A stretch of DNA of 49,158 bases. Source: Marine group II euryarchaeote REDSEA-S30_B12 (GTDB taxonomy: Archaea > Thermoplasmatota > Poseidoniia > Poseidoniales > Thalassarchaeaceae). The stretch lies in NCBI GenBank assembly GCA_001629205.1, contig LURV01000030.1, forward strand, positions 1-49,158, in the 5' to 3' direction. Under the pieces are notes generated by a model. The model saw nothing but the letters and a program-made list of their open reading frames with translations. It did not search any database and had not been told where the DNA came from. Positions 6,044 through 38,295 of this stretch are shown here, piece by piece (positions within the stretch are counted from its first letter, which is position 1; each line of letters starts with the position of its first letter). Position numbers and translations under genes: made by a program.

Positions 6044-6853
6044 GTGGAGATCCTAGAATACCTAGCTGATGCTGACCCTGTGCTTCAAGCATTTTTTGCA
6101 GGATTATTTACTTGGGGGATGACTGCAGCAGGTGCTGGTATTGTATTTTTCTTTAGAGAAATTAATAGAGGAATTCTAGATGGAATGTTGGGTTTTGCAG
6201 CTGGAGTAATGATTGCTGCTAGTTGTTTTGGACTATTGGGTCCAGCTATCGATCAGACTGAGGGAGAAGGATTTTGGAAAGTTCTTCCAGCAGCACTGGG
6301 ATTTATTCTTGGTGGGATATGTATGAGAATAATTGACTATTATTTACCACATCTTCACCCTGGTGCACCACCGGAAGAGACAGAAGGAGTGAAAACCAAT
6401 TGGCATAGGAGTATGTTACTAGTTTCGGCAATCACCTTACATAATATTCCCGAGGGACTAGCAGTTGGAGTAGCTTTTGGCGCAGCTGCTACTGGAGATA
6501 GTATGGGTGCTGCGATAGCTCTAATGATTGGAATAGGCATTCAAAACTTTCCAGAAGGTGCTGCAGTTTCTGTACCATTAAGGAGAGAGGGTTTGAGTAG
6601 AAAGCAGAGTTTTTTGTGGGGTCAATTTTCTGCCCTAGTAGAGCCATTGTCTGCAGTTCTGGGGGCTGCAGTTATTGTTTACATGAATCCTATTCTACCT
6701 TATGCTCTGGCATTCGCTGCGGGAGCAATGATATTCGTAGTGGTAGAAGAATTGATTCCTGAATCTCATAGGGGAAAGAATGGAGATATTGCTACAATGG
6801 GAGTTATGTTAGGATTTACAATAATGATGATTTTAGATGTTTGGCTTGGATGA
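6044..6853 (+). CDS. ZIP-family metal transporter
   Basis: Integral membrane protein importing Zn2+, Fe2+ or related divalent metals into the cytoplasm. The two metal-site helices carry HNIPEG (133-138) and QNFPEG (167-172), as in ZupT-type ZIPs. About eight hydrophobic helices and 269 residues fit the family. A His-containing loop (HLHPG at 103-107) between helices 3 and 4 is the usual variable metal loop. The start is GTG 6044. Its stop overlaps the xdhC-like start in an ATGA, so the two are probably translationally coupled. The metal could be zinc, iron or even a supply for the cofactor genes around it; the sequence does not decide. Confidence 0.88.
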   Translation: MEILEYLADADPVLQAFFAGLFTWGMTAAGAGIVFFFREINRGILDGMLGFAAGVMIAASCFGLLGPAIDQTEGEGFWKVLPAALGFILGGICMRIIDYYLPHLHPGAPPEETEGVKTNWHRSMLLVSAITLHNIPEGLAVGVAFGAAATGDSMGAAIALMIGIGIQNFPEGAAVSVPLRREGLSRKQSFLWGQFSALVEPLSAVLGAAVIVYMNPILPYALAFAAGAMIFVVVEELIPESHRGKNGDIATMGVMLGFTIMMILDVWLG

Positions 6854-7722: not shown

Positions 7723-7765
7723 AATATTATCTTTTAGGATAATTTGCTAACCGAATACTCATAGG

Positions 7766-8272
7766 ATGATTCCCCTTGTGAGTAGCATGGTCGAGTTCCG
7801 ATTGCCAATGCTACCACAACCGGGTGAGTTAGTTTGGAGCGTAAATATCAATGGTACAGAGGTCAAATTGAATATAGAAAGTAACGCTATTCTTCTTGAT
7901 GTCTTAAGAGACCAAGCAGGCAGCCTTGGGACAAAAAGAGGATGTGATATGGGAACTTGTGGCTGTTGTTCTGTTCTAGTTGACGGTGAGCCGAGGTTAT
8001 CTTGTCTTACTTTAGCCGCTGATATGAATGGGCGTGAAATTACTACAGTTGAGGGATTAGCTAACGGACATCAATTATTATCTCAAAATAATAATCCTAC
8101 AAACGAAGAAATAAAGACGGCGATTGAAGGTAATCTTTGTAGATGTACTGGGTTTCAACAAATAGTTGATTCTATTCGTGCCGCATCTGATATAATAAGA
8201 GAAAATAATGATATTGAGGATTCCACTTCAGCAAAAAGTGATCCCCATCCGGGATTTATGGAGGGGAATTAA
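7766..8272 (+). CDS. Mo-hydroxylase small subunit, [2Fe-2S] protein lacking part of cluster II
   Basis: Electron-transfer subunit of a xanthine-dehydrogenase/CO-dehydrogenase/4-hydroxybenzoyl-CoA-reductase-type enzyme. The plant-ferredoxin-like cluster I ligands are present (C60, C65, C68, C80). The second domain normally holds a CGxC pair followed by a CRC pair. Only the CRC pair (C125, C127 in NLCRCTG) is present: the stretch of about 28 residues with the CGxC motif that should follow residue 103 is missing, and the sequence goes straight from EGLANGHQ to LLSQNNNPTNEE. As read, the proximal cluster would have only two of its four cysteines. The N-terminus is extended by about 20 residues. 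A GAGGGG near the gene end serves the next start. Confidence 0.85.
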   Translation: MIPLVSSMVEFRLPMLPQPGELVWSVNINGTEVKLNIESNAILLDVLRDQAGSLGTKRGCDMGTCGCCSVLVDGEPRLSCLTLAADMNGREITTVEGLANGHQLLSQNNNPTNEEIKTAIEGNLCRCTGFQQIVDSIRAASDIIRENNDIEDSTSAKSDPHPGFMEGN

Positions 8273-11044
8273 TTGGTTAAAGATAAGGAAATTCAAGGAT
8301 ACAGACAACAGCCTGGAAAGTTACCATTCTCTAAACCTGGTTCTGGAGGGAAGAACTCATTCTCAAAACCGATAAATTTGGAAAATATTCCCGTTTCTCA
8401 AAATGGCATTAAAGACCAACCTTGGGGTCCACATAGGCATGATTCATTGATTAGTGGACAGGTGATAGGGAAGTCTACAGCTTTAGTGGACAGCGCATGG
8501 AAAGTTACTGGTCAAGCACAATATGGAGACGATGTAAGGCTCCCAAATGAGCTGATAGGTAGAATAGTAAGATCTCCACATCATTATGCTAAAATATTAT
8601 CAATTGATTGTTCAAAAGCATTAGATCTTCCTGGCGTTGTTGCGATAGCTACTGGAAATGATGCAAAGAATAAATTCGGCGTTTTGCCGGTTACAAAGGA
8701 TGAGCATGCAATGGCTGTAGAGAAAGTCCGTCATGCTGGTGACTTGATAGCATGTATAGCAGCGGAGAATGAAAATATTGCTAGAGAGGCTGAGAGATTA
8801 ATACAAATCGAATATGAAATTTTAGAATCTATTCATGACATCAAAGAAGGATTAGAAGATAGTGAGTACCCGATACATGATAGAGGGCAATATCATATTG
8901 GCAACTCAAACATACAGAAAAGAGTTTTTCAAGAATTTGGAAATATATCCTCATTAGAAAAAAATACAGTAGTTAGTCACCAATCAAATTGGACATTTGC
9001 AGGAGTCAATCATGGTTTTACTGAGCCTCATGCAGTGGTAGCTAATTGGAGTCCAGATGGAAGATTGACATTATACACACCTCAGCAAGTTCCTCACTAT
9101 GTACACAGATCTTTAGCAGATGTATTGGAAATTCCTATGCATCAGATTAATGTCCACAGAACATTCGTAGGTGGAGGTTTTGGTGGAAAGTCTGATCCTT
9201 TTCCTCATGAAATGTGTGCAGCGATTCTTGCGAGAAAGTCTGGAAGGCCAGTAAGGATAACTTTTGATAGAGAAGAAGTTTTCTGGGTTAATAGAGGAAG
9301 GCATCCTTCTAAAATCGAAATGAACTTACATGCAGATTCTATTGGAAGGATTTGTGGAATAGAAACTGACGCACTGATAGATGGCGGGAGTTTTGCTTCA
9401 TTTGGCCATGTAACTACTTACTATAATGGAGTATTACATACTGCTCCTTACGAAATTGGTGCTTTTCATTACACTGGAGCTCGAGTTTGGACGAATAAAC
9501 CTGCTAGTGGTGCGATGAGGGGGCATGGTGCGGTTAACTCAAGATGCGCAGTAGAAGTGGGCCTAGATGATTTGGCGGAAAAACTGGAGGTAGATCCAAT
9601 TACGTTAAGACTTGCGAATTTACTTCCGCCTCATTCAGCCACCATTACAGGATTTAGGGTAACTAGTATTGGTATGAGAGAGTGTTTAGAAAGAGTGAAA
9701 GAAGAAAGTGGTTGGTCGGATAAATTCAGAAAAATGCCGTTAGGAAAGGGCATAGGAATTGGATGTGGATTCTTCATTTCTGGAAGTGGCCTTCCTATTC
9801 ATTGGGATCCTAATAAATTTCCTCATGCAACTGTTCATTTGAAGATTGATATGGATGGTGGTGTGACAATTCACACAGGAGCAGCGGAAATTGGACAGGG
9901 TTCAGATACAGTAGTATCACAATCAGTAGCTGAAGTACTCGGACTTCCACTAGATATGATTAGAATTAGGTCAAGAGAATCTGATACATCGCCAGTAGAT
10001 TTGGGATCTTATTCATCTAGAGTAACGTTCATGAATGCTAATGCAGCTATTTCTGCAGCCATGAAAATTCGAGATGAGTTGATTAAAGCGGCTTCAGATA
10101 TAACTGGTGCATCAGAAGAGGTTCTGGTGATAGGAGATAGAAGAATATTTGATAAAAATAATCCTGCAATCGGTGTATCTTATCTAGAGGCTTTGCATAA
10201 ATCTCAAGAAGAAAGGGGTGCGCTAATTTCATCGGGGGCTTACAGGACTCCACCTATGGGAAAAACGCACAAAGGAGCTGCCGCTGGTTTAGCTCCAGCA
10301 TATTCATTTTCAGCATATGTAGCAGAAGTTTCTGTAGATGTTGAAACTGGCAAAACTATTGTCGATAAGGTATGGGCAGCTCATGATTGTGGAAAGGCCT
10401 TGAATCCATTAGCTGTTAATGGACAAATAATAGGCTCATGCCACATGGGACTCGGGCAAGTTCTATCTGAAGAGATGCGTTATGGAAGAACTGGTCATCT
10501 CATGAATCCTGATTTTCTAGATTATAAAATACCTAGTATTCACGAAATGCCTGAAGTTATCCCTATAATTATTGAGTCAAATGATCCTGAAGGGCCATTT
10601 GGGGCTAAGGAAGCTGGAGAGGGGCCATTACTCCCTATACTTCCTGCAGTTTGTAATGCTGTTTACGATGCAATAGGAGTAAGAACTGAAGATTTGCCTA
10701 TAACATCTGAGAAAGTTTTCAAATTAGTGGAAAAGAAATGCAGAGAACAGGGAGTTTCAAGTCCTTTGGATTTGAAGCCCCCGCGATTGGAATTCTCGGA
10801 TCTTCAAGATACTTTAGAGAAGAGAGCAGATTTGCATTCTACAAGAGATATTGAGAGGAGGTTGGATTCCAGCCGAGAGGAATACTACAACGGCGCTATT
10901 TTCGGGTTTGACCCAACGAAATCTCCAGAAGAGGTAGACGAAAATTGGTCTGTTAGAGTTATACCCAATGATGATTATCTTCATTCACCCAGATTGGCAG
11001 GGAGTGCATGGAAGCATATCGAAAGAAGGAAAATGGGTGATTAA
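8273..11044 (+). CDS. Xanthine-dehydrogenase-family molybdopterin-binding catalytic subunit
   Basis: Large subunit carrying the molybdopterin-cytosine-dinucleotide active site. The N-terminal aldehyde-oxidase hammerhead domain includes VTGQAQYGDD. A GGGFGGKSDP block binds the cofactor, AMRGHG (414-419) is the active-site loop, and the catalytic Glu is E783 in GAKEAGEG. The loop lacks the AYxCSFR motif of true form I CO dehydrogenase. PVDLGSYSSRVTFM and the partner FAD subunit point to the 4-hydroxybenzoyl-CoA reductase branch. At 923 residues it is about 150 longer than usual, with an N-terminal tail of about 70 and a C-terminal tail of about 100. It starts with TTG directly after the upstream TAA, served by GAGGGG at 8261-8266. 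The true substrate is unknown. Confidence 0.88.
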   Translation: MVKDKEIQGYRQQPGKLPFSKPGSGGKNSFSKPINLENIPVSQNGIKDQPWGPHRHDSLISGQVIGKSTALVDSAWKVTGQAQYGDDVRLPNELIGRIVRSPHHYAKILSIDCSKALDLPGVVAIATGNDAKNKFGVLPVTKDEHAMAVEKVRHAGDLIACIAAENENIAREAERLIQIEYEILESIHDIKEGLEDSEYPIHDRGQYHIGNSNIQKRVFQEFGNISSLEKNTVVSHQSNWTFAGVNHGFTEPHAVVANWSPDGRLTLYTPQQVPHYVHRSLADVLEIPMHQINVHRTFVGGGFGGKSDPFPHEMCAAILARKSGRPVRITFDREEVFWVNRGRHPSKIEMNLHADSIGRICGIETDALIDGGSFASFGHVTTYYNGVLHTAPYEIGAFHYTGARVWTNKPASGAMRGHGAVNSRCAVEVGLDDLAEKLEVDPITLRLANLLPPHSATITGFRVTSIGMRECLERVKEESGWSDKFRKMPLGKGIGIGCGFFISGSGLPIHWDPNKFPHATVHLKIDMDGGVTIHTGAAEIGQGSDTVVSQSVAEVLGLPLDMIRIRSRESDTSPVDLGSYSSRVTFMNANAAISAAMKIRDELIKAASDITGASEEVLVIGDRRIFDKNNPAIGVSYLEALHKSQEERGALISSGAYRTPPMGKTHKGAAAGLAPAYSFSAYVAEVSVDVETGKTIVDKVWAAHDCGKALNPLAVNGQIIGSCHMGLGQVLSEEMRYGRTGHLMNPDFLDYKIPSIHEMPEVIPIIIESNDPEGPFGAKEAGEGPLLPILPAVCNAVYDAIGVRTEDLPITSEKVFKLVEKKCREQGVSSPLDLKPPRLEFSDLQDTLEKRADLHSTRDIERRLDSSREEYYNGAIFGFDPTKSPEEVDENWSVRVIPNDDYLHSPRLAGSAWKHIERRKMGD

Positions 11045-11045
11045 A

Positions 11046-12029
11046 ATGAAGATGGCACCTTTTGAATTGTTTACTCCAGATTCTATTGATCAGGCATTAG
11101 AAATTTCAATAAAACTATCTGCAGAAAATAAAGATTTTGATTGGATAGCAGGTGGCACAGACTTGTTACCTAATTACAAGTGGCACATCAATTCAAAGGA
11201 ATATGTAATATCATTATCTTCCATAGATGAATTAAAAAAATTGAATAAAGTTCACATAGGAGCTACGGTCAGTATTCATGATTTAGCGAATTCTCCTAGC
11301 ACACATCCAGTACTGGCAAAAGCTGCTAGCTCCATTGCGAGTATTATGATTAGAAGATCTGGTACTGTAGGGGGGAATATCTGCTTGGACACAAGATGTT
11401 ACTGGCTCAATCAATCAGAGACTTGGAGAGAGTCCATAGATTGGTGCCATAAGTGTGATTGTGGCACAGAAGCTGATTGTAGAGTGATACCAAATCAGAA
11501 TACTCTTTGTGTTGCGACTTACCAAGCGGATTTAGCTCCTGTATTGATGTGCCTGGGAGCTGAAATCCACCTACTTGGTGAAAAGGGAAGAAGATCTATG
11601 AAACTAGAAGAATTTTTTGAGTTGGATGGGATAAAAAGAAATGTTTTGTTTCCTGGGGAATTGATTACACATATTACTATACCAGATGATTCTAATGAAT
11701 GGAAAGGAGATTATCAAAAACTAAGGCAAAGAGATACTTGGGACTTTCCAGAGGCGGGAGTAGCAGTTCTTTGGAAAACTAATAATAACAATTCTATTAA
11801 AGATTTGAGAATAGCAACTACTGGTTTAGAGTCGATTCCGGCTATTCACCATAAAGAAGTAGATGAAATTCTTCCTACATGGAATGGAAAAGAATCTGTG
11901 GATGTGTTGGCCGATTCAATCAGGAAGGCTGTGAAGCCTGTACAAAATACTTGGTTTTCCCCGAATTATAGAAAAAAGATGGTCAAGGTATTAACAAAGA
12001 GGGCATTTGGAAACTTACTGGTGGAGTGA
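11046..12029 (+). CDS. Mo-hydroxylase FAD-binding subunit with extra [4Fe-4S] motif (HcrB-like)
   Basis: Medium FAD subunit passing electrons between the iron-sulfur subunit and its acceptor. FAD-contact motifs are AGGTDLLP (35-42) and RSGTVGGNI (104-112). A Cys-rich insertion follows. C118, C134, C145 and C155 have nearly the spacing of the [4Fe-4S] ligands of 4-hydroxybenzoyl-CoA reductase beta, with DTRCYWLNQSETWR as the shared surrounding sequence. Further Cys at 113, 137 and 139 may substitute. ATG 11046 starts one base after the catalytic subunit's stop; a longer reading from 10968 would overlap that gene and is unlikely. The extra cluster distinguishes this enzyme from plain CO dehydrogenase or nicotinate-type hydroxylases. 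Confidence 0.87.
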   Translation: MKMAPFELFTPDSIDQALEISIKLSAENKDFDWIAGGTDLLPNYKWHINSKEYVISLSSIDELKKLNKVHIGATVSIHDLANSPSTHPVLAKAASSIASIMIRRSGTVGGNICLDTRCYWLNQSETWRESIDWCHKCDCGTEADCRVIPNQNTLCVATYQADLAPVLMCLGAEIHLLGEKGRRSMKLEEFFELDGIKRNVLFPGELITHITIPDDSNEWKGDYQKLRQRDTWDFPEAGVAVLWKTNNNNSIKDLRIATTGLESIPAIHHKEVDEILPTWNGKESVDVLADSIRKAVKPVQNTWFSPNYRKKMVKVLTKRAFGNLLVE

Positions 12030-24209: not shown

Positions 24210-24334
24210 GTTTCTATGAGAGAATGAACTGCGTATATTTGTTGCTCAGAAATGATTAAAAATTTGAGAAAATATTGAAAATTGTAAACAATAAATTAAT
24301 TATATTTTTGTCAATTAGTGGTAATTTTAATGTC

Positions 24335-24351
24335 CTCCTACGAAGTAGGAG
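24335..24351 (+). promoter_or_regulatory. Hairpin covering the ribosome-binding site of the subtilase gene
   Basis: CTCCTAC-GAA-GTAGGAG is a perfect 7-bp stem with a 3-nt loop. Its 3' arm contains the Shine-Dalgarno-like GGAG at 24348-24351, four bases before ATG 24356. Folding would hide the ribosome-binding site, so translational control is possible. Confidence 0.5.
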
Positions 24352-24355
24352 AACT

Positions 24356-27300
24356 ATGTCCAGTGGTAACCGGGTGTCGGCGCCCCTCGCCCTGCTACTA
24401 ATTACATTGATGATTTCAGCCCCATTATCTGGTTGTACAGGAAATTTAGTTGATGATGAAAATGAAATTTCTTCAGAGGATAATGAAGAATTTGATGATA
24501 TTCAGATAAGAGAAGAAATTGATAATACTTTTGAAGAATCTCTAGATAAAATCGATAATGGCATAGGAAAAGAATTAGGTGGAGGCGAAAGGGAGGTTGA
24601 GATTGGCATTCCTGATTTAGAGAATCCGATTCACGGATGGGGTGAACTAGATAACATTGGAGAGGCCCTTCTACGTAATAGAAAAGCATTCTATATACCA
24701 ATTCAGGAATGGGATGAAAGGACTGGGGAATCGCTGGTAAATGGATGGAATGTTCTTGCCCATAGCTATCCTATACCCAGTGATTGGAAGAGTAACTTAG
24801 CTGAACTTGGAGTTGAATGCGTAAGTTTCTTTTCCCCTCAAGGATTTCACTGTGATGTCCCTAATTTATCGCCCAACTTACTGTTAGAAAACGAGGTAAT
24901 TGGAGCTTTCAAATTAGACTCGACTGATAAATTTGATTTTGAAACTGTATCTATTTTAAAGGGTGAAAAGGAAACCAATGCCATTATGAATGGTGATTTG
25001 TATATTGTGAATATTGTATTTTCAGGCTCATTTGATGAGCATTTATCTAAACTCGATAATGGTCTTTTTCAGAATATTGAGTTTTTTTCGGGGCGTTTTG
25101 CAGAAGTAGAAACCGATATTTTTGGTTTGGAATGGTTATCCAATCAGGATTATATTGAATGGATGGATTTGCAATTCCCCATTACTTTCGATAATGATGT
25201 AGGGGCTGATATCGTAAATGCAGATTGGGTCAGAGACTCTGCAAATATGGGAGGTCCTCTGAACACTTTGACAGGTTCTGGCGTGATAGTTGGAGTTATG
25301 GATTCTGGACTCGATAATGCAGTTGTTTGTACTGACCTAGCTGATTGTAATACGAAAAATTCTGGAATTATGTCGGATTTCCAGGGAAGAATTGTGGGAG
25401 TCGAGAATTTTGTTCAATGCGGAAATACGGATGGTCCTTCTGATCCTGATGGACATGGGACTGATGGACATGGGACTCACGTTACTGGTACCGTACTAGG
25501 TGATGGTTCCAGCGGTACGGGAAGTTCTGATTATTCTGGAATTGCACCTGAAGCTATGTTGTACATGCAGTCAGTTTATTCTGTGTGTAATGCAGATAAT
25601 AAATTAGCTACTCCTAATGACTACTCTAATATTTTCCAAACAGCATATGATAATGGTGCAAGAGTTCATACGAATTCATGGGGGGCTAATTATAATGATA
25701 ATGAATATAGTAGCCTTTCACTACAAATAGATACGCATGCACATAATCTCGATGATTTGACTATTCTTTATGCAATGGGCAATGACGGATTAGATTCGAA
25801 TGATGATGGTGAAGTAGATACGGGTTACATGAATACACATGCAACTGCTAAGAATATTATTTCTGTGGGAGGGTCAGAAAACTATAGAGAAGGCACCATT
25901 CCGACAACTTGGTATGATTTTAAATTCAAAAGTGGAGCAATAAAATTCTCTGAACCCCCTATTTCTGGTGATAGTGTTATTGATGATATTGATGGAGTAA
26001 TGGCAATTTCCAATAGAGGACCCACTGCAGATGGTAGAATAAAGCCGGATATTTTGGCTCCGGGTTCTTTTGTCGCTTCTACTCTATCATCTGAAGCCAG
26101 TTGTGATTGGGGAGTTGCTGGAAATCCTGCTTACTGTTACTTAACTGGAACTTCGATGGCAACGCCGATGGTGGCTGGTGGTGCAGCTCTGATTTTAGAA
26201 TATTTGAATAATCAAGGGATTGCGAATCCATCATCTGCTCTAATAAAAGCTATGTTAATTGCTGGTGCTCATGATATGGAAGGGCAATATTCCTATGGAG
26301 GTTCAGATGGTGAGAACTCGGCTGTTGAATCAGCTCCTAACGTCCATGAAGGCTGGGGAAGAATGGACTTGCAAGGTTCTGTTCAGACTGGATTTACTGA
26401 AGGAATAAACATTACAACATTCGAAAGTCACTCACTAAAGATGGAGGTACCTGTTGGAATCTCTGATTTCAGAATAGTACTTGCTTGGAATGATCCACCT
26501 AATTCAGCAGCTGCTCAAAATCAACTAATAAATGACTTAGATATTGCTCTAAGAGATCCAACAGGTGCATGGTACGACTATGATAATGATGATGTAAATA
26601 ATTTAGTAGGAATATCTGTAGAAGCTCCTGATCCAGGTGATTGGGAAGTAGTAATAAATGGAACTAATGTTCCTAATGGACCTCAAGAATATTACCTTGC
26701 TTCCAGCAATGGATTAGCAATAGGCGATTCTAGAAATCCTGTTTCTGGAGTATTAAATTCTGCTGGATTTCAATCTGGATCAATCTTTACTGAAACTACA
26801 TTATCTGCTGGAGAGAGTCATTTTTGTACTATTTTCGATGATTCTTCATTGCAGTGTTGGGGCGAAAATGACTTTGGTCAACTTGGAGATGGTTCAAACT
26901 CTGATAGGTTTACAATGACTGAAGTATCCTTAGAAAGTGGTAGAACGGCAGTTTCTGTCAGCTCCGGTGACTACCATTCTTGCGCTATTCTTGATGATGC
27001 CAGTCTTCATTGCTGGGGACGAAATAATAAAGGTCAACTTGGTTTTGTTGGAGATACATCATCCAGTATGCCTACACAAGTTAATTTCGGTTCATTGTAT
27101 CCTGTTCAGATTTCATCGGGTGGAAGTCATAATTGTGTAATCTTAAACGATGCTAGTCTTCAGTGTTGGGGGGATAATAGCAATGGTCAGCTTGGAGATG
27201 GTTCCACTACTGATAGTTTCTCTCCCATTACTATAAGTTTTGGGATTAACAAAGTTCTGGCAGTTTCTGCTGGTTCTGATCATACTTGTGCATTACTTGA

Positions 27301-28897
27301 TGATAGGAGTTTAGAATGTTGGGGGAGTAATGAGTTTGGACAACTTGGAGATGGAACTACAACTGACAGTTATTCTCCTTCAACAGTGGTTTTAGGCGGT
27401 TCATCAGTTGCAGTTTCTTCTGGTGATGGACACACATGTTCTTTACTTTCAGATAAAACTCTGAAATGCTGGGGGGACAACAGTTATGGTCAGCTTGGGG
27501 ATGGAACTCAGGTGTCTCAATGGTCTCCTGTAGTGATTGAATCAGATGTCGCAACTATTGATTCGGGGAATAATCAAAACTGTTTAATTGATATTTCTCA
27601 GGTGCTAAAATGTTGGGGAAATAATGACATTGGACAAATAGGAGACGGAACTACCAGCATGATATTATCCCCTACAGAAATTAGTCTAGGGCCAGTGATT
27701 TATCCGTTATCAGTTTCCTCTGGTGGCTCAATATCCTGTGCAGTAACTAATAATGATTTATTGAAGTGCTGGGGAGGTATTGGTGAAAATTTTGCACCGA
27801 TAACATCTCCAATTACAATGGACTTACCAAGATGGACATATATTAACTCGGCTGAGAGAGATTTAGATGGTGATGATGAAATGAATATTTTTGATACCCA
27901 TGGAGCGGGAGATTTAGATGGAGATGGTTTTGCTGGTGGAGATGATTTTGACGATAATAATCCTACAAAAGCAAAATTTTGTCCAGTTCCAACATACGGA
28001 AGATATGTTTGTCTCTCGCCCACCAAGGGATTCTATGTTGATACTCCTGGCACTGCAGTCAAGAGTCCAGCTAGATTAGGGCACTATGTGGCAATTGATG
28101 GAGCCTCAAGTGATACCCCTTGTTTGGCAGGAACATATCAATCTCAGACCGGGCAAACATCATGTAATGATGCAAGAGCGGGATATTATGTTGAAAATCC
28201 TCAAGCTGAATTTGATACTCCTTGCCCGGGTGGTACTTTCAATCCCGCAACTGGTTCAACATCTGCATCTGACTGTAGAGGGTCAGATCCTGGATATAAT
28301 GTTCCAATACTGACTCAAATCTCACTAGGCTCATTTCATTCATGTTCTGTACTGGATGATGGTTCAGTAAGTTGTTGGGGTAGTAACGAGTTTGGGCAGC
28401 TTGGAGATGGATCTCGAGAATCTAAACAAGTTCCTACCAAGGTCCTACTTCCACAGGGGAAGAGAGTAGAGAGCTTAAGTTCGGGATCTTACCACAATTG
28501 TGCAATACTTAATGATAATACCTTTAGATGTTGGGGAAGTAACGAGTTTGGACAGCTTGGGGATGGAACTAGTATTGAAAGAACAAATCCTGTTATAATT
28601 TCGTTAGGTGCAGGTAAAACTGCTACATCAGTATCCTCTGGCGAAGGCCATACATGTTCAGTTTTGAATGATAAGACAATCAAATGCTGGGGGGATAATA
28701 GCAATGGTCAGCTTGGGGATGGTTCCACTACTGATAGTTTTAGTCCGATTTCTATTAATCTGGGTGGTGGTGATTTGGCTCTATCAATCTCCTCAGGATC
28801 ATATCATACATGTTCATTAACTACATCTAGAGATGTAAAATGTTGGGGAGATAATTATCATGGGCAGTTGGGAATGGGTGATAATGTAGATAGATAA
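24356..28897 (+). CDS. Subtilase lipoprotein with RCC1 propellers (N-terminal part, ends at in-frame TAA)
   Basis: Secreted S8 serine protease. ATG 24356 gives a lipoprotein signal peptide with lipobox LSGC; the frame is open upstream to 24275 but adds no sensible start. A prodomain-like region precedes the catalytic domain, whose Asp codon is at 25301 (VMDSGLD), His at 25469 (DGHGTHVTGT) and Ser at 26153 (GTSMATPMVAGG). A P-domain-like segment follows. Seven RCC1-type repeats (HTC...CWG...GQLGDG) at about 26800-27830 should make one seven-bladed propeller. An Asp-rich stretch and a Cys-rich GCC2/GCC3-like region come next (about 27850-28300), then four repeats of a second propeller. TAA at 28895 stops translation, and the same frame continues with the missing blades. 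It may be truncated, read through or mis-sequenced. Confidence 0.85.
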   Translation: MSSGNRVSAPLALLLITLMISAPLSGCTGNLVDDENEISSEDNEEFDDIQIREEIDNTFEESLDKIDNGIGKELGGGEREVEIGIPDLENPIHGWGELDNIGEALLRNRKAFYIPIQEWDERTGESLVNGWNVLAHSYPIPSDWKSNLAELGVECVSFFSPQGFHCDVPNLSPNLLLENEVIGAFKLDSTDKFDFETVSILKGEKETNAIMNGDLYIVNIVFSGSFDEHLSKLDNGLFQNIEFFSGRFAEVETDIFGLEWLSNQDYIEWMDLQFPITFDNDVGADIVNADWVRDSANMGGPLNTLTGSGVIVGVMDSGLDNAVVCTDLADCNTKNSGIMSDFQGRIVGVENFVQCGNTDGPSDPDGHGTDGHGTHVTGTVLGDGSSGTGSSDYSGIAPEAMLYMQSVYSVCNADNKLATPNDYSNIFQTAYDNGARVHTNSWGANYNDNEYSSLSLQIDTHAHNLDDLTILYAMGNDGLDSNDDGEVDTGYMNTHATAKNIISVGGSENYREGTIPTTWYDFKFKSGAIKFSEPPISGDSVIDDIDGVMAISNRGPTADGRIKPDILAPGSFVASTLSSEASCDWGVAGNPAYCYLTGTSMATPMVAGGAALILEYLNNQGIANPSSALIKAMLIAGAHDMEGQYSYGGSDGENSAVESAPNVHEGWGRMDLQGSVQTGFTEGINITTFESHSLKMEVPVGISDFRIVLAWNDPPNSAAAQNQLINDLDIALRDPTGAWYDYDNDDVNNLVGISVEAPDPGDWEVVINGTNVPNGPQEYYLASSNGLAIGDSRNPVSGVLNSAGFQSGSIFTETTLSAGESHFCTIFDDSSLQCWGENDFGQLGDGSNSDRFTMTEVSLESGRTAVSVSSGDYHSCAILDDASLHCWGRNNKGQLGFVGDTSSSMPTQVNFGSLYPVQISSGGSHNCVILNDASLQCWGDNSNGQLGDGSTTDSFSPITISFGINKVLAVSAGSDHTCALLDDRSLECWGSNEFGQLGDGTTTDSYSPSTVVLGGSSVAVSSGDGHTCSLLSDKTLKCWGDNSYGQLGDGTQVSQWSPVVIESDVATIDSGNNQNCLIDISQVLKCWGNNDIGQIGDGTTSMILSPTEISLGPVIYPLSVSSGGSISCAVTNNDLLKCWGGIGENFAPITSPITMDLPRWTYINSAERDLDGDDEMNIFDTHGAGDLDGDGFAGGDDFDDNNPTKAKFCPVPTYGRYVCLSPTKGFYVDTPGTAVKSPARLGHYVAIDGASSDTPCLAGTYQSQTGQTSCNDARAGYYVENPQAEFDTPCPGGTFNPATGSTSASDCRGSDPGYNVPILTQISLGSFHSCSVLDDGSVSCWGSNEFGQLGDGSRESKQVPTKVLLPQGKRVESLSSGSYHNCAILNDNTFRCWGSNEFGQLGDGTSIERTNPVIISLGAGKTATSVSSGEGHTCSVLNDKTIKCWGDNSNGQLGDGSTTDSFSPISINLGGGDLALSISSGSYHTCSLTTSRDVKCWGDNYHGQLGMGDNVDR

Positions 28898-30799
28898 GTG
28901 CCTAATTTAGTAAACTTACCATCCAATGCCAGTGTAATTTCGATTTCTTCTGGATCATTTCATACTTGTGCTGCATTGAATAATGGAGAAGTTTATTGTT
29001 GGGGATTCAATGCTTATGGTCAACTTGGAGATTTTTCTACAAACAATAGCAATAGTCCAGTAAAGGCTAGATTGCTAGAAAATCAGATTCCAACTCAAGT
29101 CTCATCAGGGGTATTCCATACATGCTCATTACTTGATGGGGGAGAAATTGCGTGCTGGGGAGATAGTACTTTTGGACAGCTTGGAGATGGAACATTAACC
29201 TCCTCGACTATTCCTGTTATTGCTGATACCCCAGTAGACAGTGCAGCTTTATCAATATCAGTAGGGCAAAGGCATTCATGTTCAATATTGGATGATGCGA
29301 CGCTTTATTGTTGGGGTTTTAATGAGTTTGGGCAGCTTGGGGATGGAACTACAGATAATAGAAATTCACCACAAGAAATAGACTTAATGCATGGTTCAGC
29401 ATCCCAGATTAAGTGTTCAGCAGGAACCTATCAGCCTGATGCTTCTCAGACATCTTGCATTCTTGCCGATAGAGGATATAGTGCCCCATCAAAAGGTGCA
29501 TTAGATCAGACTGGGTGCTCTAGAGGATATTATTCAAATCTTAGAGGGCAGGCAACATGTTTTGAGGCTTCATTAGGATACTATGTTGACGAATTACTAG
29601 CGACTTCACAAAAGGCTTGTCCTGCCAATACTTCCACCGTCAATAGGGCAAGTGGTAATGCAGATCTATGTATTGATGATTTTGATGGTGATCTAATTCC
29701 AGACGTGACTGATTTGGATGATGATAATGATGGAATTAGTGATCGATTTGATCTGTGGCCATTAGATCCAGAATTAGCTTTAGATGCGGATGGAGATGCT
29801 ATTCCAGACAGTATAGATGTTGATGATGATAATGATGGAGTTAATGATACAGATGATTTGTTTCCAAATAACCAGAATGAATGGGCGGATGAAGATAATG
29901 ATGGCATAGGAGATAATTCGGATAATGATGATGATAATGATGGTAGAGTTGATACATTTGATAAGTTTCCAAATGATCCTTTAGAATGGTCCGATTTCGA
30001 TGATGATGGCATAGGAGATAACGAAGATGATAATGACGATAATGATCAATTCTTAGATACTGTTGATGCATTTCCCAATGATGCTTCAGAATGGTTAGAT
30101 ACCGATGCCGATTCTATAGGAAATAATGCTGATGATGATGATGACGGAGATGGCTTTACAGATGATATAGACCGTTTTCCGTTGCTATCCTCTGAATGGT
30201 TAGACACTGATGGAGATAGCTTTGGTGATAATATCGATATGTTTGATGATGGTGACGTAGTAATTGATGGAGTCACCTACAGATTGGCTGAAAACGATAT
30301 AAATTGGTGGATCGATTCCGATGGTGATGAAATTGGTGATATTAGTCAGATAGATTTAGAAAAGGGGATAATCGCTGGAGATAATTGTCCCGATGTTCCT
30401 GGAATTAATTATACTGAACCACAACTAAATCATGGAATTGTAGCAAAAGGTTGGCTACTAGGATGTCCAAAAGAAATCGAAGAAATCGAAGAAATCGAAG
30501 AAGAAATCGAAGAGCCAGGACTTGAAGAGGCATTAATGAAAGATACAGATGGAGATGGTGAACCTGATGCTTATGATCTTGATGATGATGGTGATGGAAT
30601 TACTGACTGTGTCATAACCGATAGAGATTGCGTTCCTGAAGATAAATATCCTCTAGATGCTACAAGGCCATTCGATAATAATTCATGGTCTATGATTTTA
30701 GTCAGTATTGGATTTATATCACTGGCTATTTATCGATTAGTTGGTTGGCAACGTAGAAAAATTGCTAAATTGAAATCTAAAAGAATAAGACTAGATTAG
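28898..30799 (+). CDS. C-terminal part of the subtilase/RCC1 protein: last blades, Asp-rich repeats, membrane anchor
   Basis: This is in the same frame as the preceding gene, separated only by TAA; its first codon, GTG 28898, is the nearest possible start. It supplies three RCC1 repeats that complete the second seven-bladed propeller, a second Cys-rich GCC2/GCC3-like region (about 29410-29680), and a long run of thrombospondin-3-like calcium-binding repeats rich in DxDxDG (about 29680-30290). A Glu/Ile repeat (30472-30515), one transmembrane helix and a basic tail close it. There is no signal peptide, so if made alone it could not be exported normally. The parts belong to one protein of about 2147 codons from ATG 24356. 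Confidence 0.75.
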   Translation: MPNLVNLPSNASVISISSGSFHTCAALNNGEVYCWGFNAYGQLGDFSTNNSNSPVKARLLENQIPTQVSSGVFHTCSLLDGGEIACWGDSTFGQLGDGTLTSSTIPVIADTPVDSAALSISVGQRHSCSILDDATLYCWGFNEFGQLGDGTTDNRNSPQEIDLMHGSASQIKCSAGTYQPDASQTSCILADRGYSAPSKGALDQTGCSRGYYSNLRGQATCFEASLGYYVDELLATSQKACPANTSTVNRASGNADLCIDDFDGDLIPDVTDLDDDNDGISDRFDLWPLDPELALDADGDAIPDSIDVDDDNDGVNDTDDLFPNNQNEWADEDNDGIGDNSDNDDDNDGRVDTFDKFPNDPLEWSDFDDDGIGDNEDDNDDNDQFLDTVDAFPNDASEWLDTDADSIGNNADDDDDGDGFTDDIDRFPLLSSEWLDTDGDSFGDNIDMFDDGDVVIDGVTYRLAENDINWWIDSDGDEIGDISQIDLEKGIIAGDNCPDVPGINYTEPQLNHGIVAKGWLLGCPKEIEEIEEIEEEIEEPGLEEALMKDTDGDGEPDAYDLDDDGDGITDCVITDRDCVPEDKYPLDATRPFDNNSWSMILVSIGFISLAIYRLVGWQRRKIAKLKSKRIRLD

Positions 30800-32233: not shown

Positions 32234-33148
32234 CTATTTTCTAGAGAAGAATAGTAATCCTTGAGGAAGAATCGTTTCCTTCCATAATTTCAGAAATGAA
32301 GTGAAAATAGAGTCTTCATTACTATCGCCCTCTTCTGTGAATAAAGACCTAGCCGATATTGAAATAAAATCTATAATTAAAACTACTATGAAAATTATGA
32401 TTAAATAGGCTATTACTTTATCATACTGTAAAAATTTTAGATACAAATTGATGTAATAGCCTATTCCGCCAGCACCAACTATTCCAATCACGGTACCATG
32501 TCTAACATTATATTCAAACATGAAAATTATTTGGGAAATTAGATCGTTTGCATTCTCCGGAATAACAATTCCCTTAGAAATTTCATATCTTGAAAGTCCC
32601 ATAGATTTTCCTGCTTCCAGTGGAATGCTAGAAATTCCTTCTATAGATTCATATTGTAATTTTCCTAAATATCCTACTGTATATATTGTCATTGCCAGAA
32701 TTCCCGATATTGGTCCAAAACCTACCAAAATAACGAAGAATATTGCCCATATTATACTAGGTAAACTTCTTGCTGCTGCTAGGATAAAACGTACAATAAA
32801 TGATATCCATCTTGGATTTAAATTTCTTGCAGCTAGTAGGGCCAAAGGTAGTGAAATTATGGAACCAAAAATTGTTGAGATAAAGGCGATTTTTAATGTT
32901 TCAATTATTCCTATCCAAGCAGTTGAGCATGTAAAGTCAAAAAGAGGATAAACGGTACATACAGGATATGCTTGTGGTTCAATTACACTCCAATTTGGTG
33001 GCCATAGAGATTCTGAAATAAAGATTGTAAGATTATTCCAACTCCCTGAGAGTCTTCCCCAATCATCCACTAGATTATTTATTAAAAATACTGATATTAG
33101 TAGTCCTATAAATGAAAACCAGATTACTGCATTGTCTCTAAAACTCAT
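32234..33148 (-). CDS. ABC transporter permease, PhnE-like
   Basis: Membrane permease with about six helices and the cytoplasmic coupling loop EAGKSMGLSRYEISKGIVIP typical of the phosphonate/BPD permease family. A Cys-containing external loop (YPVCTVYPLFDFTCSTAW) lies after the first helix. Its ATG overlaps the ATPase stop as ATGA. By family it is PhnE, but the binding protein of this locus is transferrin-like, so I infer that the real cargo is ferric iron, not phosphonate. The gene ends 9 nt from the small gene on the other strand. Confidence 0.88.
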   Translation of the reverse strand: MSFRDNAVIWFSFIGLLISVFLINNLVDDWGRLSGSWNNLTIFISESLWPPNWSVIEPQAYPVCTVYPLFDFTCSTAWIGIIETLKIAFISTIFGSIISLPLALLAARNLNPRWISFIVRFILAAARSLPSIIWAIFFVILVGFGPISGILAMTIYTVGYLGKLQYESIEGISSIPLEAGKSMGLSRYEISKGIVIPENANDLISQIIFMFEYNVRHGTVIGIVGAGGIGYYINLYLKFLQYDKVIAYLIIIFIVVLIIDFISISARSLFTEEGDSNEDSIFTSFLKLWKETILPQGLLFFSRK

Positions 33149-33870
33149 TTTTCTGCCTCCAGCAATATAGTTCTTGTTTCACTGATAAACGGATTTACAC
33201 GTCCATCATCAATAACCAGTAAATGATCTGCCATTTCCCTCGCTCGAGATACATCATGCTCCACAACTAGTAAGGCAGCTTTACTGTTCTTTACATAATC
33301 AATTATTTCCCTAAGTACCATATTGATAGTTTTCTCATCTAATTCACTAAGAAATTCATCAGCCATAATTAAACTAGGAGCTTGCGATAGTGTCCTAGCG
33401 ATTGCTACTCTTCTTTGCTGACCGCCAGAAAGTCTCCTTACTGGCTCATTGATTTTTTCGGTAAGTCCCAATGAATTGATTGTTTTTAAGCTGTAATTTT
33501 TCTCTTCTTTACTTGAAAAGTAAGACTTAGGGAGTTTTTGATTTGTTTTTGCTCCTAGCATAACATTATGTAAAACACTTGCATGTCTAACCAATCCTAG
33601 TCTTTGAGGAATATATCCTACTTCACCTCTTAGAATTTTTGATGGATTACTACCACAAACATGTATGTATCCTGAAATAGGTTTTACTAACCCAGCGATT
33701 GTTCTCAATAGTGTAGTTTTACCTATTCCAGAAGGTCCAGTAACTGCAACAACTTCTCCTGGAAAAATCTCCATATTTGTTATTTCTACTAGTGGTCTGG
33801 ATGAATTGAAACCAATTACCACATCTTTGAGATGAACTATTGGAGTCTTATTTTCATCTTCCATTATCAC
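33145..33870 (-). CDS. ABC transporter ATP-binding protein, PhnC-like
   Basis: ATPase with Walker A GPSGIGKTT, Q-loop region GYIPQRLGL, signature LSGGQQRRVAIARTL, Walker B LIMADE and H-loop VVEHD. The sequence groups with PhnC-type ATPases that pair with PhnE permeases. Start GTG 33870 has a G6 run four bases upstream; ATG 33864 is an alternative. A TATA-like element (33908-33914) and a TTTAGGG-NN-CCCTAAA palindrome (33890-33905) precede it, so this operon has its own promoter and probably a repressor site over the start of transcription. Confidence 0.88.
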   Translation of the reverse strand: MIMEDENKTPIVHLKDVVIGFNSSRPLVEITNMEIFPGEVVAVTGPSGIGKTTLLRTIAGLVKPISGYIHVCGSNPSKILRGEVGYIPQRLGLVRHASVLHNVMLGAKTNQKLPKSYFSSKEEKNYSLKTINSLGLTEKINEPVRRLSGGQQRRVAIARTLSQAPSLIMADEFLSELDEKTINMVLREIIDYVKNSKAALLVVEHDVSRAREMADHLLVIDDGRVNPFISETRTILLEAEK

Positions 33871-34004: not shown

Positions 34005-36137
34005 TTAGTCAGTTATTTCATACTTTGTATCATAATAGGTTGATATTCCTGGGATATTTTTGATTAATGAAGAATAACTACCTAAGTGTTCTTGTGTATT
34101 TACTCTAGTTAATCCCGGTGTATTTAGTACATTTTCCATGATTTGGTCTCCACAAGTATTCATGTCTGAAGTAGAGTCAATTTTGTGAATAGATATATCA
34201 TAACATCCAGTATATGTAGTTCCCATCATAGGATAATCTACTACATACATTTCGTTGTTCAATGACATTAGTGCATTTAGTATTACTGTTCTTGATTGCA
34301 TATCCAGCAAATCAGGATTATACATAACCGGATGGCTTGGTGCTTTTCCGAATGCTGGAAGAGCTACATATTGATCCATAGCTAAGCACCAATCTTCATT
34401 CTCTGTAGCATCTTCATTATCGCAGTAAGAGGCTATTGTGCTATCCTTAGCAAATGCAACATCTCCAGCTCCTTCTGATAGACATTTTACAGCTCCACTA
34501 TATCCATAGTAAGGAGTACCTGATTCTGGGATGGATGCATCATCATTGAAGAATTCATATATTGTAGCACTCAATGAAGAAATATCGTTTGCATCTCCAA
34601 CAACATTAGCATAACCATTACCAATCAAGTAACCCATTGGTAATAGCATTCCAGCAGATTTTAGCCATCCTGTGTGACATGATGTCTTTCCTGCTAGTAA
34701 AGCAAATGGATCAGTGCTTGGATCGTTATCTAGATGAGCTGCTGCGACATCACTGTCAGCTTTTACCCATGCATGTGCATCATAGTGAGTTCTTCCATCT
34801 GACTTCATATCTGCGGCCATTGCTGCAAGTCCGTAATCTTTCCATCCTACCCATGCAGCTCCACCATCCATGAATGCAATGTCTGCATTTCCGAATCTAA
34901 GTGCTTCAATGATAGCCCCTTCAGACTCAACATTGTACAATTCTACTTCCACCCCAAGAGCTTCAGCTAGATAGTCAGCTAAGAGTTGAGGATTAGTATC
35001 AATTGCATCTCCGGTATAATCAGATTTCACTTCAAATGCTATTCTGATTTTATCTACAGATGGATCTAATGTAGCGTTTAAACTATATTTTCCGTTATAA
35101 TATGCTGAAATTCCAGGAATATTTCTTATTGAAGATGAATAACTTCCTAGGTGTTCATCTGTGGTTGTAGAAACTATGCCATCAGTGCTAAGGATATTCG
35201 CTAAAATTGCTGTAGCATTTTCATCGGAAGACATTCCAATCAACGTATTTTTGACTAGTTCAGCTTTTGAAGAATCCATCAATGTGGGATTGTACATAAC
35301 CGGATGACTTGGTGCTTTTCCGAATGCAGGAAGAGCTACATATTGATCCATAGCTAAGCACCAATCTTCATTCTCTGTAGCATCTTCATTGTTGCAGTAA
35401 GATTCTATGGTGCTATCCTTGGCAAATGCAACATCTCCAGCTCCTTCTGATAGGCATTTGATTGCACCGTCATATCCATAATATGGAGTACCTGATTCAG
35501 GTATGGAAGCATTTTCATTGAAAAATCCTAATACAGTATTTCTCAATGTCTCTACATCATTAGGATCTCCTATAACATTTGCATAACCGTGTCCAATCAA
35601 GTAACCCATTGGCAATAACATTCCAGCAGATTTTAGCCATCCTGTATGACATGATGTCTTTCCTGCAAGTAAAGAGAATGGGTCAGTATATGGATCATCA
35701 TCCAAATGTGCTAATGCCATTTCAGACCCAGCTTTGACCCAAGCATGAGCAAAGTAGTAAGGTCTTCCATCAGATTTAGTGTCTGCAGCTAAAACCTGTA
35801 AATCGTATTGTTGCCATCCTACCCATGCAGCTCCACCATCCATGATTGCGATATCTGCATTTCCGAATCTCAAGGCTTCTATCATTGCTCCTTCAGAGTC
35901 TACATTATACAAGGAAACTTGATAGTTCATCTTTTCAGCTAGATAGTCAGCTAATAATTGTGGATTTTCATCAATATTTTCGTAATCATCTTGCACTGCG
36001 TATGCAATTACAAGATTTCCATCAGATGGCACTGCAAGTTCTTGAACTTCATCTTCACTTCCACCTAGACAGCCCGCTAGAACGCAGGAAACCATCATTA
36101 TTGTTATTAAAACTGTATTAATTTTCATATTTTTCAT
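34005..36137 (-). CDS. Bilobal transferrin-like substrate-binding lipoprotein (PhnD-related)
   Basis: A lipoprotein (lipobox VLAGC, Cys23) of 710 residues made of two homologous type II binding-protein lobes, about 40-355 and 365-705. Each lobe has the transferrin signature. In lobe 1, D100, the YY at 127-128, SCHT (162-165), K169, GY222 in the GYDGAIKCL block, GAGDVAF (232-238) and H329 match the places of transferrin Asp63, Tyr95, carbonate Thr120/Arg124, Tyr188 and His249. Lobe 2 has D424, Y452, SCHT (486-489), K493, Y546 and H684. The Cys pairs C163/C228, C248/C260 and their lobe-2 copies match two transferrin disulfides. The first Tyr is one position off in my alignment, and Arg is Lys. 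PhnD-type proteins share this fold. I infer ferric-iron binding; an oxyanion ligand remains possible. Confidence 0.85.
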   Translation of the reverse strand: MKNMKINTVLITIMMVSCVLAGCLGGSEDEVQELAVPSDGNLVIAYAVQDDYENIDENPQLLADYLAEKMNYQVSLYNVDSEGAMIEALRFGNADIAIMDGGAAWVGWQQYDLQVLAADTKSDGRPYYFAHAWVKAGSEMALAHLDDDPYTDPFSLLAGKTSCHTGWLKSAGMLLPMGYLIGHGYANVIGDPNDVETLRNTVLGFFNENASIPESGTPYYGYDGAIKCLSEGAGDVAFAKDSTIESYCNNEDATENEDWCLAMDQYVALPAFGKAPSHPVMYNPTLMDSSKAELVKNTLIGMSSDENATAILANILSTDGIVSTTTDEHLGSYSSSIRNIPGISAYYNGKYSLNATLDPSVDKIRIAFEVKSDYTGDAIDTNPQLLADYLAEALGVEVELYNVESEGAIIEALRFGNADIAFMDGGAAWVGWKDYGLAAMAADMKSDGRTHYDAHAWVKADSDVAAAHLDNDPSTDPFALLAGKTSCHTGWLKSAGMLLPMGYLIGNGYANVVGDANDISSLSATIYEFFNDDASIPESGTPYYGYSGAVKCLSEGAGDVAFAKDSTIASYCDNEDATENEDWCLAMDQYVALPAFGKAPSHPVMYNPDLLDMQSRTVILNALMSLNNEMYVVDYPMMGTTYTGCYDISIHKIDSTSDMNTCGDQIMENVLNTPGLTRVNTQEHLGSYSSLIKNIPGISTYYDTKYEITD

Positions 36138-36215: not shown

Positions 36216-36246
36216 TTATCAAAAATCTCAGTAGATAATACTGATG

Positions 36247-36255
36247 TTATTATAT
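36247..36255 (+). promoter_or_regulatory. Putative TATA box of the divergent surface-protein gene
   Basis: TTATTATAT stands about 35 nt before ATG 36286, which fits a short leader and favours that start over the one at 36244. Confidence 0.4.
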
Positions 36256-36285
36256 CTCTACCCTTTTACCAATGATGTGAAGAGT

Positions 36286-38295
36286 ATGAGAAGAGTGGAG
36301 ATGTTTACAATATTTGCAGTACTTATGATGGTAGGTAGCTATACAATAAATCTCCTAGAAATTGAAAAATTAGAGAATAAAAAAGAAAGAAAAAATCAGT
36401 TTGGAGGTGGTGGCTCTTTAGAAGAGCAATGTAGTTCGATAACTTTCGAAGAGATGTTCATCTACGATAAAGCGATTTTCGATATTCGAATTAATGAAGA
36501 CTGGGAGACTGCTGAAGTTGAAGCAGTTGCTTGGATTAATTGGACTAATGCTGATGACATTAGAGAGGATTTTGATGAATATCTAGATGGTTATCTGCCT
36601 AGTGGCGGAGATGGATGGATTTCTACTGATGAGATTGCTCCAGTTCTCCTAATTGCAGCAGATTGCTTAGAGTATACAATCACTAGAATGGGATTTAGAG
36701 ATGGAAGTCCGCATCGCGGTGGAGTTGGAGTAGACTGGAAAAATACATCTTGGCAAAATGATGGAATGGAGATAGGTCACTTTAACGGAATTCCTGAGAG
36801 ACACATTGATCGTAGAGATTGTCAGGGATTCAGTCAAGATGGATGTTACGAAATACCTGTCAGACCTAATGAAAATAGAGATTGTGATGTTGAAATTGAA
36901 AATAGTCCATCTATAGATGAATGTAGAATAATGATATGGTTGAATGCAACTATGGAAATTCCGGGAGTTACTAATTCGAATGATTTTACTCTGACTTTCA
37001 ATTCTTCAAATATAAGTAACGCACAGTTAGACTTTACATTTCCACAGACCGAAAATTTGAGATTGGATCTTTGGGAAGAATGTGAGGGTAGATTTGTAGG
37101 TCCAGATAATGAAAATAATGGAAGTTATTCTACTCCAATAAGGGGAAGTTGTATAGGTGATGGTTTGACTAAATTTACTTTATCTGAAAATAATGATTCT
37201 AGTTTAACGTATTCAATATTTCCAAATATGAATAGGGCACATTGGCCAGGTGGAGAGGATATATTTGCAGATTTTACTACTTCTCCCATTCCTGTTGATA
37301 TTCCTCCACAATGGACTCAAAATGCGTATCCTGATAACTCTTGGATTCCAATGTATGGTTTTGGAGAAACAAAATTTGCTGAATGGGGAGATATTTCAAC
37401 TTGGTTTGTTGATGATTCTGCTGTTTCAGAGCTCGAAATATTATGTTTTTCAAACCTCTCACCTATTTCTCAGAGTATAGACAAATCTTTGTGGATTAAC
37501 ATCCAAAATATAGAAGATATTATCGAGATAACATGTATGGCTGAAGATTCTACGGGTCAACAAACAGAAAATAGGACATGGTTCGTTGGCTCTCCTGTAA
37601 CAATATCTACAACAAAAAATGTATTAGAAGGTCCACACCCCCTCACATTGGAATATACGAATATTTGGGAAAAACAGATTAAGGTAAGTGTAAAATTAAC
37701 TCAAGGTGGATCTGTAAATTCTGCCCAAGAATTTTTTATTCAAGGTGAAGGTAGTTTAAATGATTCATTTACTTCATTTAAGACTGTAGAAATAAGTGAA
37801 ATCGGAATGATACCTGGACAAGTTAATGTTTGGATTCAAATCTCATCTGATAATTACTCTATTGAAAAAATATTGAATCTTGGGATAGAAAAGTTGGGAT
37901 CACCCCCGATAATTGAAAATTTTGATTTTGAATTGGAAGATAGGAGACTAAAATTTAGTGGATTTTACAGTGAGCCGGATGGTCAGAATGTAAATTTTAA
38001 GCTACTAAGCTCAGATGAAGAATTAGATATCATAATAAACGACTATGGAAATTCATGGGCGACAGAATGGATTGAAATTGGAGAAGAAATTTCTGGATTG
38101 ACAACATTTACTATTTCCAGTTGTGATAAAGGTGGAATGTGTACAACAAAGGATATTGTTGTAAATTTAACTAATGTTAATGTAGAAAATATTGATGAAG
38201 AAATTATAGAAGATAATAGAATTCCTGCTAGTGGAATTATCACTATATTTTCTTCATTATTATTGGCCATCATTTTACGAAAAGGGGATGCATAA
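36286..38295 (+). CDS. Anchored surface protein, divergent from the transferrin-like gene
   Basis: ATG 36286 gives a protein that begins with a signal-anchor-like helix (MFTIFAVLMMVGSYTI), followed by a long external part rich in Asn, Asp and Cys (many Cys in the first 330 residues) and beta-rich C-terminal segments. It ends with IPASG, one hydrophobic helix and a short basic tail. An upstream start (36244) would put a further 14 residues before it. Glycosylation-type NxT/S sites are frequent. Two palindromic operators lie in the shared promoter region, so co-regulation with iron uptake is possible. Its stop overlaps the ATG of the Gar1-like gene. No known domain recognised. Confidence 0.7.
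   Translation: MRRVEMFTIFAVLMMVGSYTINLLEIEKLENKKERKNQFGGGGSLEEQCSSITFEEMFIYDKAIFDIRINEDWETAEVEAVAWINWTNADDIREDFDEYLDGYLPSGGDGWISTDEIAPVLLIAADCLEYTITRMGFRDGSPHRGGVGVDWKNTSWQNDGMEIGHFNGIPERHIDRRDCQGFSQDGCYEIPVRPNENRDCDVEIENSPSIDECRIMIWLNATMEIPGVTNSNDFTLTFNSSNISNAQLDFTFPQTENLRLDLWEECEGRFVGPDNENNGSYSTPIRGSCIGDGLTKFTLSENNDSSLTYSIFPNMNRAHWPGGEDIFADFTTSPIPVDIPPQWTQNAYPDNSWIPMYGFGETKFAEWGDISTWFVDDSAVSELEILCFSNLSPISQSIDKSLWINIQNIEDIIEITCMAEDSTGQQTENRTWFVGSPVTISTTKNVLEGPHPLTLEYTNIWEKQIKVSVKLTQGGSVNSAQEFFIQGEGSLNDSFTSFKTVEISEIGMIPGQVNVWIQISSDNYSIEKILNLGIEKLGSPPIIENFDFELEDRRLKFSGFYSEPDGQNVNFKLLSSDEELDIIINDYGNSWATEWIEIGEEISGLTTFTISSCDKGGMCTTKDIVVNLTNVNVENIDEEIIEDNRIPASGIITIFSSLLLAIILRKGDA

Follow-up and report, generated by a model that had tools for sequence, protein, structure and literature searches.

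What ligand is carried by a transferrin-like lipoprotein that is encoded beside an ABC transporter of the phosphonate type? The question is raised by a locus in a Marine Group II archaeon, REDSEA-S30_B12, from which we analyzed 49,158 bp of contig LURV01000030.1; this whole stretch is referred to as the window. As the original prediction had it, positions 34005–36137 hold one intact gene. The ORF lies on the minus strand, as do its partner genes described below, and comprises 710 codons between an ATG at 36137 and a stop codon at 34005–34007. The sequence itself reveals a lipoprotein signal peptide (residues 1–23; 36069–36137) whose LAGC lipobox is conserved in relatives and whose Cys23 is the predicted lipidation site. 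Two lobes follow, as had been proposed: an N-lobe of residues 40–352 (35082–36020) and a C-lobe of residues 363–710 (34008–35051), the latter delimited by alignment with the N-lobe and with single-lobe relatives. The lobes share 72% identity over 309 aligned residues, and towards its C-terminus the C-lobe carries an insertion with an additional pair of cysteines. Each contains the SCHT motif that had been reported, and the GYxGAxKCL block followed by GAGDVAF was likewise confirmed.

Two features of the coding layout merit description. Where residues 244–268 (35334–35408) and 568–592 (34362–34436) are the same in the two lobes, the third codon base also agrees in 21 of 21 cases, while agreement is 0.3–0.8 in other blocks; local gene conversion between these segments is possible. 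Divergently oriented to the transferrin gene is a gene for a 683-residue protein without a Pfam match (36244–38295), and similar proteins lie near single-lobe transferrins in relatives (L145:403–2451 and L146:13678–15729).

To establish which family the protein belongs to, we relied on profile and structure-database searches with controls. Searches with the transferrin and phosphonate-binding profiles had been set beforehand as a check, and both matched: Pfam Transferrin (PF00405) with an E-value of 2.1e-42 and 145.9 bits, passing the gathering cut-off of 20.3, and Phosphonate-bd (PF12974) equally well, with an E-value of 1.3e-41. A single-sequence phmmer search of the PDB found lactoferrins at an E-value of 3e-32, and the 60 matches listed in the phmmer and profile searches comprised transferrins and the carbonic anhydrase inhibitor of the same family, and nothing else. 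A profile built from 11 prokaryotic lobes matched melanotransferrin (1.6e-51), ovotransferrin (1.2e-50) and lactoferrin (2e-50), the listed matches again being all of the transferrin family. By contrast, the control search with E. coli PhnD found the structures of PhnD, PtxB, HtxB and AioX but no transferrin, and this protein did not match PF00405 up to E = 1. A second control, a PhnD-like protein of Thermoplasmatota (L159), scored 18.9 bits against PF00405, below the cut-off, and its best structure match was HtxB. PF00405 was also absent from all 14 well-known control genomes. The archaeal protein itself failed the curated PhnD cut-offs of TIGR03431 (76.1 versus 261.1) and TIGR01098 (100.4 versus 112.05), did not match the Fea1 domain (PF07692), and had no FbpA-type family (SBP_bac_6/SBP_bac_11-type) among its Pfam matches up to E = 10.

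Together, the PF00405 match, the PDB searches and the PhnD controls indicate homology at the level of the transferrin family and not a mere shared fold. The protein is a bona fide transferrin-family member, and its homology to the animal proteins extends through most of each lobe. The same single-sequence and profile searches and controls led us to reject chance resemblance to transferrin. Names such as "PhnD/SsuA/transferrin family substrate-binding protein" are in use in databases of the RefSeq type, and part of this phrase occurs in two papers.

The predicted iron site was then audited residue by residue. In HMMER and MAFFT alignments, four ligand positions of each lobe aligned with those of transferrin without a shift. 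In the N-lobe, these are Asp100 (35838–35840), Tyr128 (35754–35756), Tyr222 (35472–35474) and His278 (35304–35306), the last within a PSH motif; the C-lobe equivalents are Asp424 (34866–34868), Tyr452 (34782–34784), Tyr546 (34500–34502) and His602 (34332–34334), also in PSH. The anion site corresponds to Thr165–Lys169 (35631–35645) and Thr489–Lys493 (34659–34673). We take the human transferrin equivalents to be D63, Y95, Y188 and H249 for the ligands and T120 and R124 for the anion site, with Y95 matching Y92 of bovine lactoferrin. Among 141 lobes, the first ligand is Asp in 136 and Glu in 5, the two tyrosines are kept in 140 and 138, and the histidine in 136. The exact D-Y-T-K-Y-H set occurs in 127 of 140 scorable lobes, Glu replaces Asp in five, and a handful are degenerate.

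These alignments uphold the assignment of Asp100/424 and Tyr222/546 to iron-ligand positions and the replacement of the carbonate-anchor Arg of animals by Lys (K169/K493; Lys in 133 of 141 lobes, with the Thr kept in 140). They amend the original prediction in two other respects. The first tyrosine, described as one residue off, aligns gap-free with the ligand Tyr. His329/684, named as the ligand, belongs to another invariant motif further on, HLGSY, which is not aligned with the His ligand of transferrin; the ligand position is that of the PSH histidine. The case for a transferrin site is stronger for both changes. The claim that two Cys pairs per lobe fall at transferrin disulfides stood in part: C163–C228 and C487–C552 correspond to human C118–C194, whereas only one half of the second pair (C248/C260 and C572/C584) does so, C260/C584 alone aligning with a transferrin Cys (human C227).

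Structure prediction was consistent with this assignment. An AlphaFold2 model of the N-lobe, computed from 41 sequences, had a pLDDT of 93.8 and a pTM of 0.88. A Foldseek search of the PDB matched it to transferrin lobes, with an E-value of 2.6e-15 for an N-lobe and TM scores of up to 0.69 on the query, the best being for open or apo forms. PtxB and AioX were interleaved with transferrin lobes in this list, as is expected for one superfamily. The full-length, two-lobe model was of lower confidence (pLDDT of 69), and its best 50 Foldseek matches were all transferrins. The predicted fold is thus that of a transferrin lobe.

The original prediction placed the lipoprotein beside an ABC transporter, and genes for an ABC ATPase and a permease do lie downstream. 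A gap of 134 bp separates the transferrin gene from the ATPase gene (241 aa; 33145–33870), which has the same orientation; the ATPase matched ABC_tran with an E-value of 1e-28 and is of the PhnC type, although its best NCBIfam score, 148 bits for TIGR02315, is below the cut-off of 266. The permease gene (304 aa; 32234–33148), whose start overlaps the ATPase stop, encodes a protein that scored 224 bits with TIGR01097, above the PhnE equivalog cut-off of 216.7. The transporter core is therefore PhnE-like, whatever its substrate. In the main genome comparison of Marine Group II, "transport of phosphonates" is counted among the core traits, with no mention of transferrin or siderophores (PMC6336850).

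The importer might accordingly be a conventional PhnCDE system whose binding protein takes phosphonate, phosphite or phosphate, the likeness of that protein to transferrin reflecting no more than shared fold and ancestry. Such a protein would be expected to match PF12974, to have a permease that passes the PhnE cut-off and to resemble PtxB, to which our N-lobe model is indeed close (TM of 0.8 on the target), and it would fit the listed core trait. It would not be expected to fall below the PhnD family cut-offs, or to match PF00405 where the PhnD-like proteins of E. coli and Thermoplasmatota fail to do so. The anion site also speaks against it. In PtxB and PhnD, the phosphite oxygens are bound by an STS-H motif and two tyrosines (PMC5700983). 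The archaeal lobes keep only the Tyr at the Y95 position: STS is replaced by K-S-A (133, 140 and 135 of 141 lobes), and the motif His by the second iron Tyr (138 of 141).

Gene context in 60 related genomes bears further on the substrate. PhnJ, the C–P lyase core protein whose gene was the phosphonate-degradation gene searched, was found in none of the 60. Fea1, a family of low-iron-inducible periplasmic proteins related to diatom phytotransferrin (PF07692; PMC7676907), occurred in 14, and in 11 of these its gene was within 5 kb of a transferrin gene, for which a rough binomial estimate that assumes p = 0.02 gives 7e-17. FecCD permeases scored above the cut-off in nine genomes and were encoded about 11 kb or less from the transferrin gene in five. 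One cluster (L146) encodes a CREG/DUF2470 protein, which we read as HugZ-like, an ABC ATPase, FecCD, Peripla_BP_2, a flavodoxin, Fea1, a PhnE/PhnC pair and the transferrin. Similarly, a locus of the bacterial candidate phylum UBP7 (L130:2–4962) holds genes for FecCD, an ABC ATPase, Peripla_BP_2, a PNPOx protein and a haem oxygenase, with the transferrin gene last; it has no adjacent PhnC/PhnE pair, and this transferrin may use another transporter. FeoB was scored by FeoB_C, as the FeoB_N profile matches generic GTPases and is uninformative. FeoB_C was found in none of the 60 relatives and in seven of 14 control genomes.

The Fea1, FecCD and haem-related neighbours, together with the absence of FeoB_C and PhnJ from the 60 relatives, point to iron and away from phosphonate. 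Fea1 and FecCD had no match in the window's own genome, which is 76% complete, so the iron neighbourhood is known from relatives and not from the window. We consider a phosphonate-type binding protein improbable. Rather, the encoding of surface transferrin relatives beside the importer suggests that the "phosphonate" transporter is probably an iron-uptake system.

A second alternative, which we hold to be less probable still, is that the same ligands bind another metal or a ferric–anion complex, such as Fe-citrate or Fe-phosphate. Transferrin sites take Al, Cu, Bi and Ti, as seen in PDB entries, a Lys in place of the Arg could suit another synergistic anion better, and the Fea1 and haem neighbours speak for iron in general, not for its exact species. 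Against this, the neighbourhood is specific to iron, and Asp-Tyr2-His is the classical Fe3+ set. The least probable of the alternatives is a lipoprotein that senses, stores or sequesters iron without supplying the ABC transporter. It would suit the UBP7 copies and the single-lobe relatives that look anchored by a TM helix and are divergent from ABC genes (L145, L146), but agrees poorly with the overlap of the permease and ATPase genes in the window. It also agrees poorly with the gene order of the 53 testable named loci, in 49 of which the transferrin gene is followed immediately by a co-oriented ATPase gene.

We conclude that the protein is probably the cell-surface ferric-ion receptor of an ABC importer. 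Points against this reading are the Lys at the carbonate anchor, the permease score above the PhnE cut-off, the equal PF12974 score, an iron neighbourhood seen in relatives but not in the window, and a ZIP transporter gene in the window that could also supply iron. The core of the original prediction, a transferrin-like, probably ferric-binding and independently two-lobed lipoprotein that serves an ABC transporter, is nevertheless supported by the profiles, the ligand audit, the predicted fold, the neighbourhood, the lack of PhnJ in the relatives and the phylogeny described below. In the mechanism we propose, each lobe in its closed form would bind a single Fe3+ through one Asp, two Tyr and one His residue, together with a synergistic anion. 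This anion would be carbonate, or possibly phosphate, bound at the helix N-terminus where PhnD and PtxB hold phosphonate or phosphite. The loaded lobe would then dock on the PhnE-type permease and release iron into the channel, with ATP hydrolysis powering import.

Other genes in the window were also noted. A ZIP transporter gene (6044–6853) could provide an alternative iron supply. Beside it, the region 5431–12029 contains molybdenum-hydroxylase-like genes for a 2Fe-2S protein, a large Mo subunit and a FAD subunit, with XdhC- and MobA-like genes. At 24275–30799, a subtilase-like protein with RCC1-like repeats ends at an in-frame TAA (28895–28897), and the following ORF carries on the repeats without a change of frame. 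The gene may be broken, the sequence may contain an error, or two genes may be present.

The family is widespread among relatives of the archaeon. Those for which GTDB records give a name belong to Poseidoniales (Marine Group II), Thalassarchaeaceae being the source of the nearest lobes, and PF00405 was found in 48 of the 60. Of 390 genomes sampled from the phylum, 114 had a match; three of these belong to the same class but not to the order (one of them also appearing as Marine Group III; L089/L048), and three to other lineages of the phylum. Single-lobe forms of about 330–400 residues and two-lobe forms of about 700–820 residues occur, sometimes both in one genome. A recently acquired animal gene, or contamination with eukaryotic DNA, was rejected as a general explanation on the basis of this distribution, which includes Marine Group III and other Thermoplasmatota, and of the position of the lipoprotein gene in an archaeal operon. 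A scan of the collection yielded 254 relatives, including two bacteria of UBP7 (L102, L130), which were kept as real because their neighbouring genes are unlike those of Poseidoniales. A further bacterial copy, in "Deltaproteobacteria" AH-558-G13 (L125; JAOMAZ010000020.1), was rejected: its genes are 87–98% identical to those of a Poseidoniales contig (L098), and the contig is apparently mislabelled or contaminated.

A diverged two-lobe paralogue adjoins PhnC/PhnE genes in three relatives (L145:6650–8554, L053:3952–6171 and L031, from G009, G003 and G014). Genomes with this paralogue also carry a seemingly membrane-anchored single-lobe transferrin. The paralogue may have another role, as its lobes have lost ligands (K to D and H to N in the N-lobe; a degenerate C-lobe).

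To place the archaeal proteins relative to those of animals, we used maximum-likelihood trees. PhnD-like proteins were separated from a joint group of prokaryotic transferrins and animal lobes (100/99 and 100/100). Within the latter, the four lobes from animals clustered with one another (100/100), whereas both lobes of the archaeal two-lobed proteins fell among archaeal single-lobe proteins. The archaeal lobe duplication is therefore separate from that of animals, which agrees with the independent two-lobed form suggested earlier; the two-lobed protein would have arisen within the archaeal group from a single-lobe lipoprotein of a kind that still exists. The trees did not distinguish animals within the prokaryotic set from animals beside it (AU p of 0.497), and the animal branch is long. 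A common origin of transferrins and phosphonate-binding proteins has already been published. In the PhnD-like, non-transferrin relatives L159 and L160, the Y95, Y188 and PSH-His positions are present, Asp is Gly or Ser, and TSTSG stands for SCHT. Judged from these sequences, a path from an anion receptor to an iron receptor is plausible.

A wider scenario is offered tentatively, as one that may well not hold in all its parts. The transferrin iron site would first have been built in marine prokaryotes, in the receptor of an ABC importer, by conversion of a phosphonate-type anion site to a carbonate/Fe3+ site; animal transferrins would descend from such single-lobe proteins; and the core "phosphonate transporter" of Marine Group II would be largely a carbonate-sensitive ferric-iron importer.

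Transferrin is usually treated as an animal (and algal) protein. As the original prediction suggested, no archaeal or ABC-linked transferrin was described in the literature searched, although the tree of McQuaid 2018 could already contain such sequences. If correct, our reading names an iron-uptake route for Poseidoniales, common planktonic archaea in which FeoB was not found by FeoB_C, and corrects the call of phosphonate transport in the Marine Group II core genome. It would also identify extant proteins that are intermediate between transferrins and the phosphonate-type binding proteins, with Asp and SCHT gained and STS-H lost, and so make the origin of the site testable. If the anion is carbonate, iron uptake by marine archaea, like that by diatoms, would be predicted to be sensitive to ocean acidification.

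Among known systems, the animal transferrins of PF00405 (serum transferrin, lactoferrin, ovotransferrin and melanotransferrin) share with the archaeal protein the lobe fold, the Asp-Tyr-Tyr-His ligands and two lobes, as well as the SCHTG anion loop with its Thr, the C118–C194 disulfide positions and the GYxGAxxCLxxGxGDVAF block. The archaeal protein differs in being a lipoprotein encoded beside an ABC importer, in having Lys for the anchor Arg, fewer disulfides and shorter lobes, and in its independent lobe duplication. PhnD, PtxB, HtxB and AioX (PF12974) share the type II binding-protein fold, PhnC/PhnE-type partners, an equal Pfam score and the Tyr at the Y95 position. By comparison with these, the archaeal protein has K-S-A and Tyr in place of STS-H, has gained the Asp ligand (Gly or Ser in PhnD-like proteins), the SCHT loop and the disulfide, and scores below the PhnD family cut-offs.

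The phytotransferrins of algae, ISIP2a/Fea1 (PF07692), likewise bind ferric iron at the cell surface, reportedly in a carbonate-dependent manner in diatoms, and a Fea1 gene is close to the transferrin gene in most relatives that have one. The archaeal protein belongs to PF00405, not PF07692, and its proposed uptake route is an ABC transporter and not endocytosis. Finally, FbpA and FutA, which with FbpBC and FutBC also combine an Fe3+ binding protein with an ABC importer, are sometimes called bacterial transferrins. FbpA is treated in the literature as convergent with transferrin, and these systems differ from the archaeal one in the families of both the binding protein and the permease.
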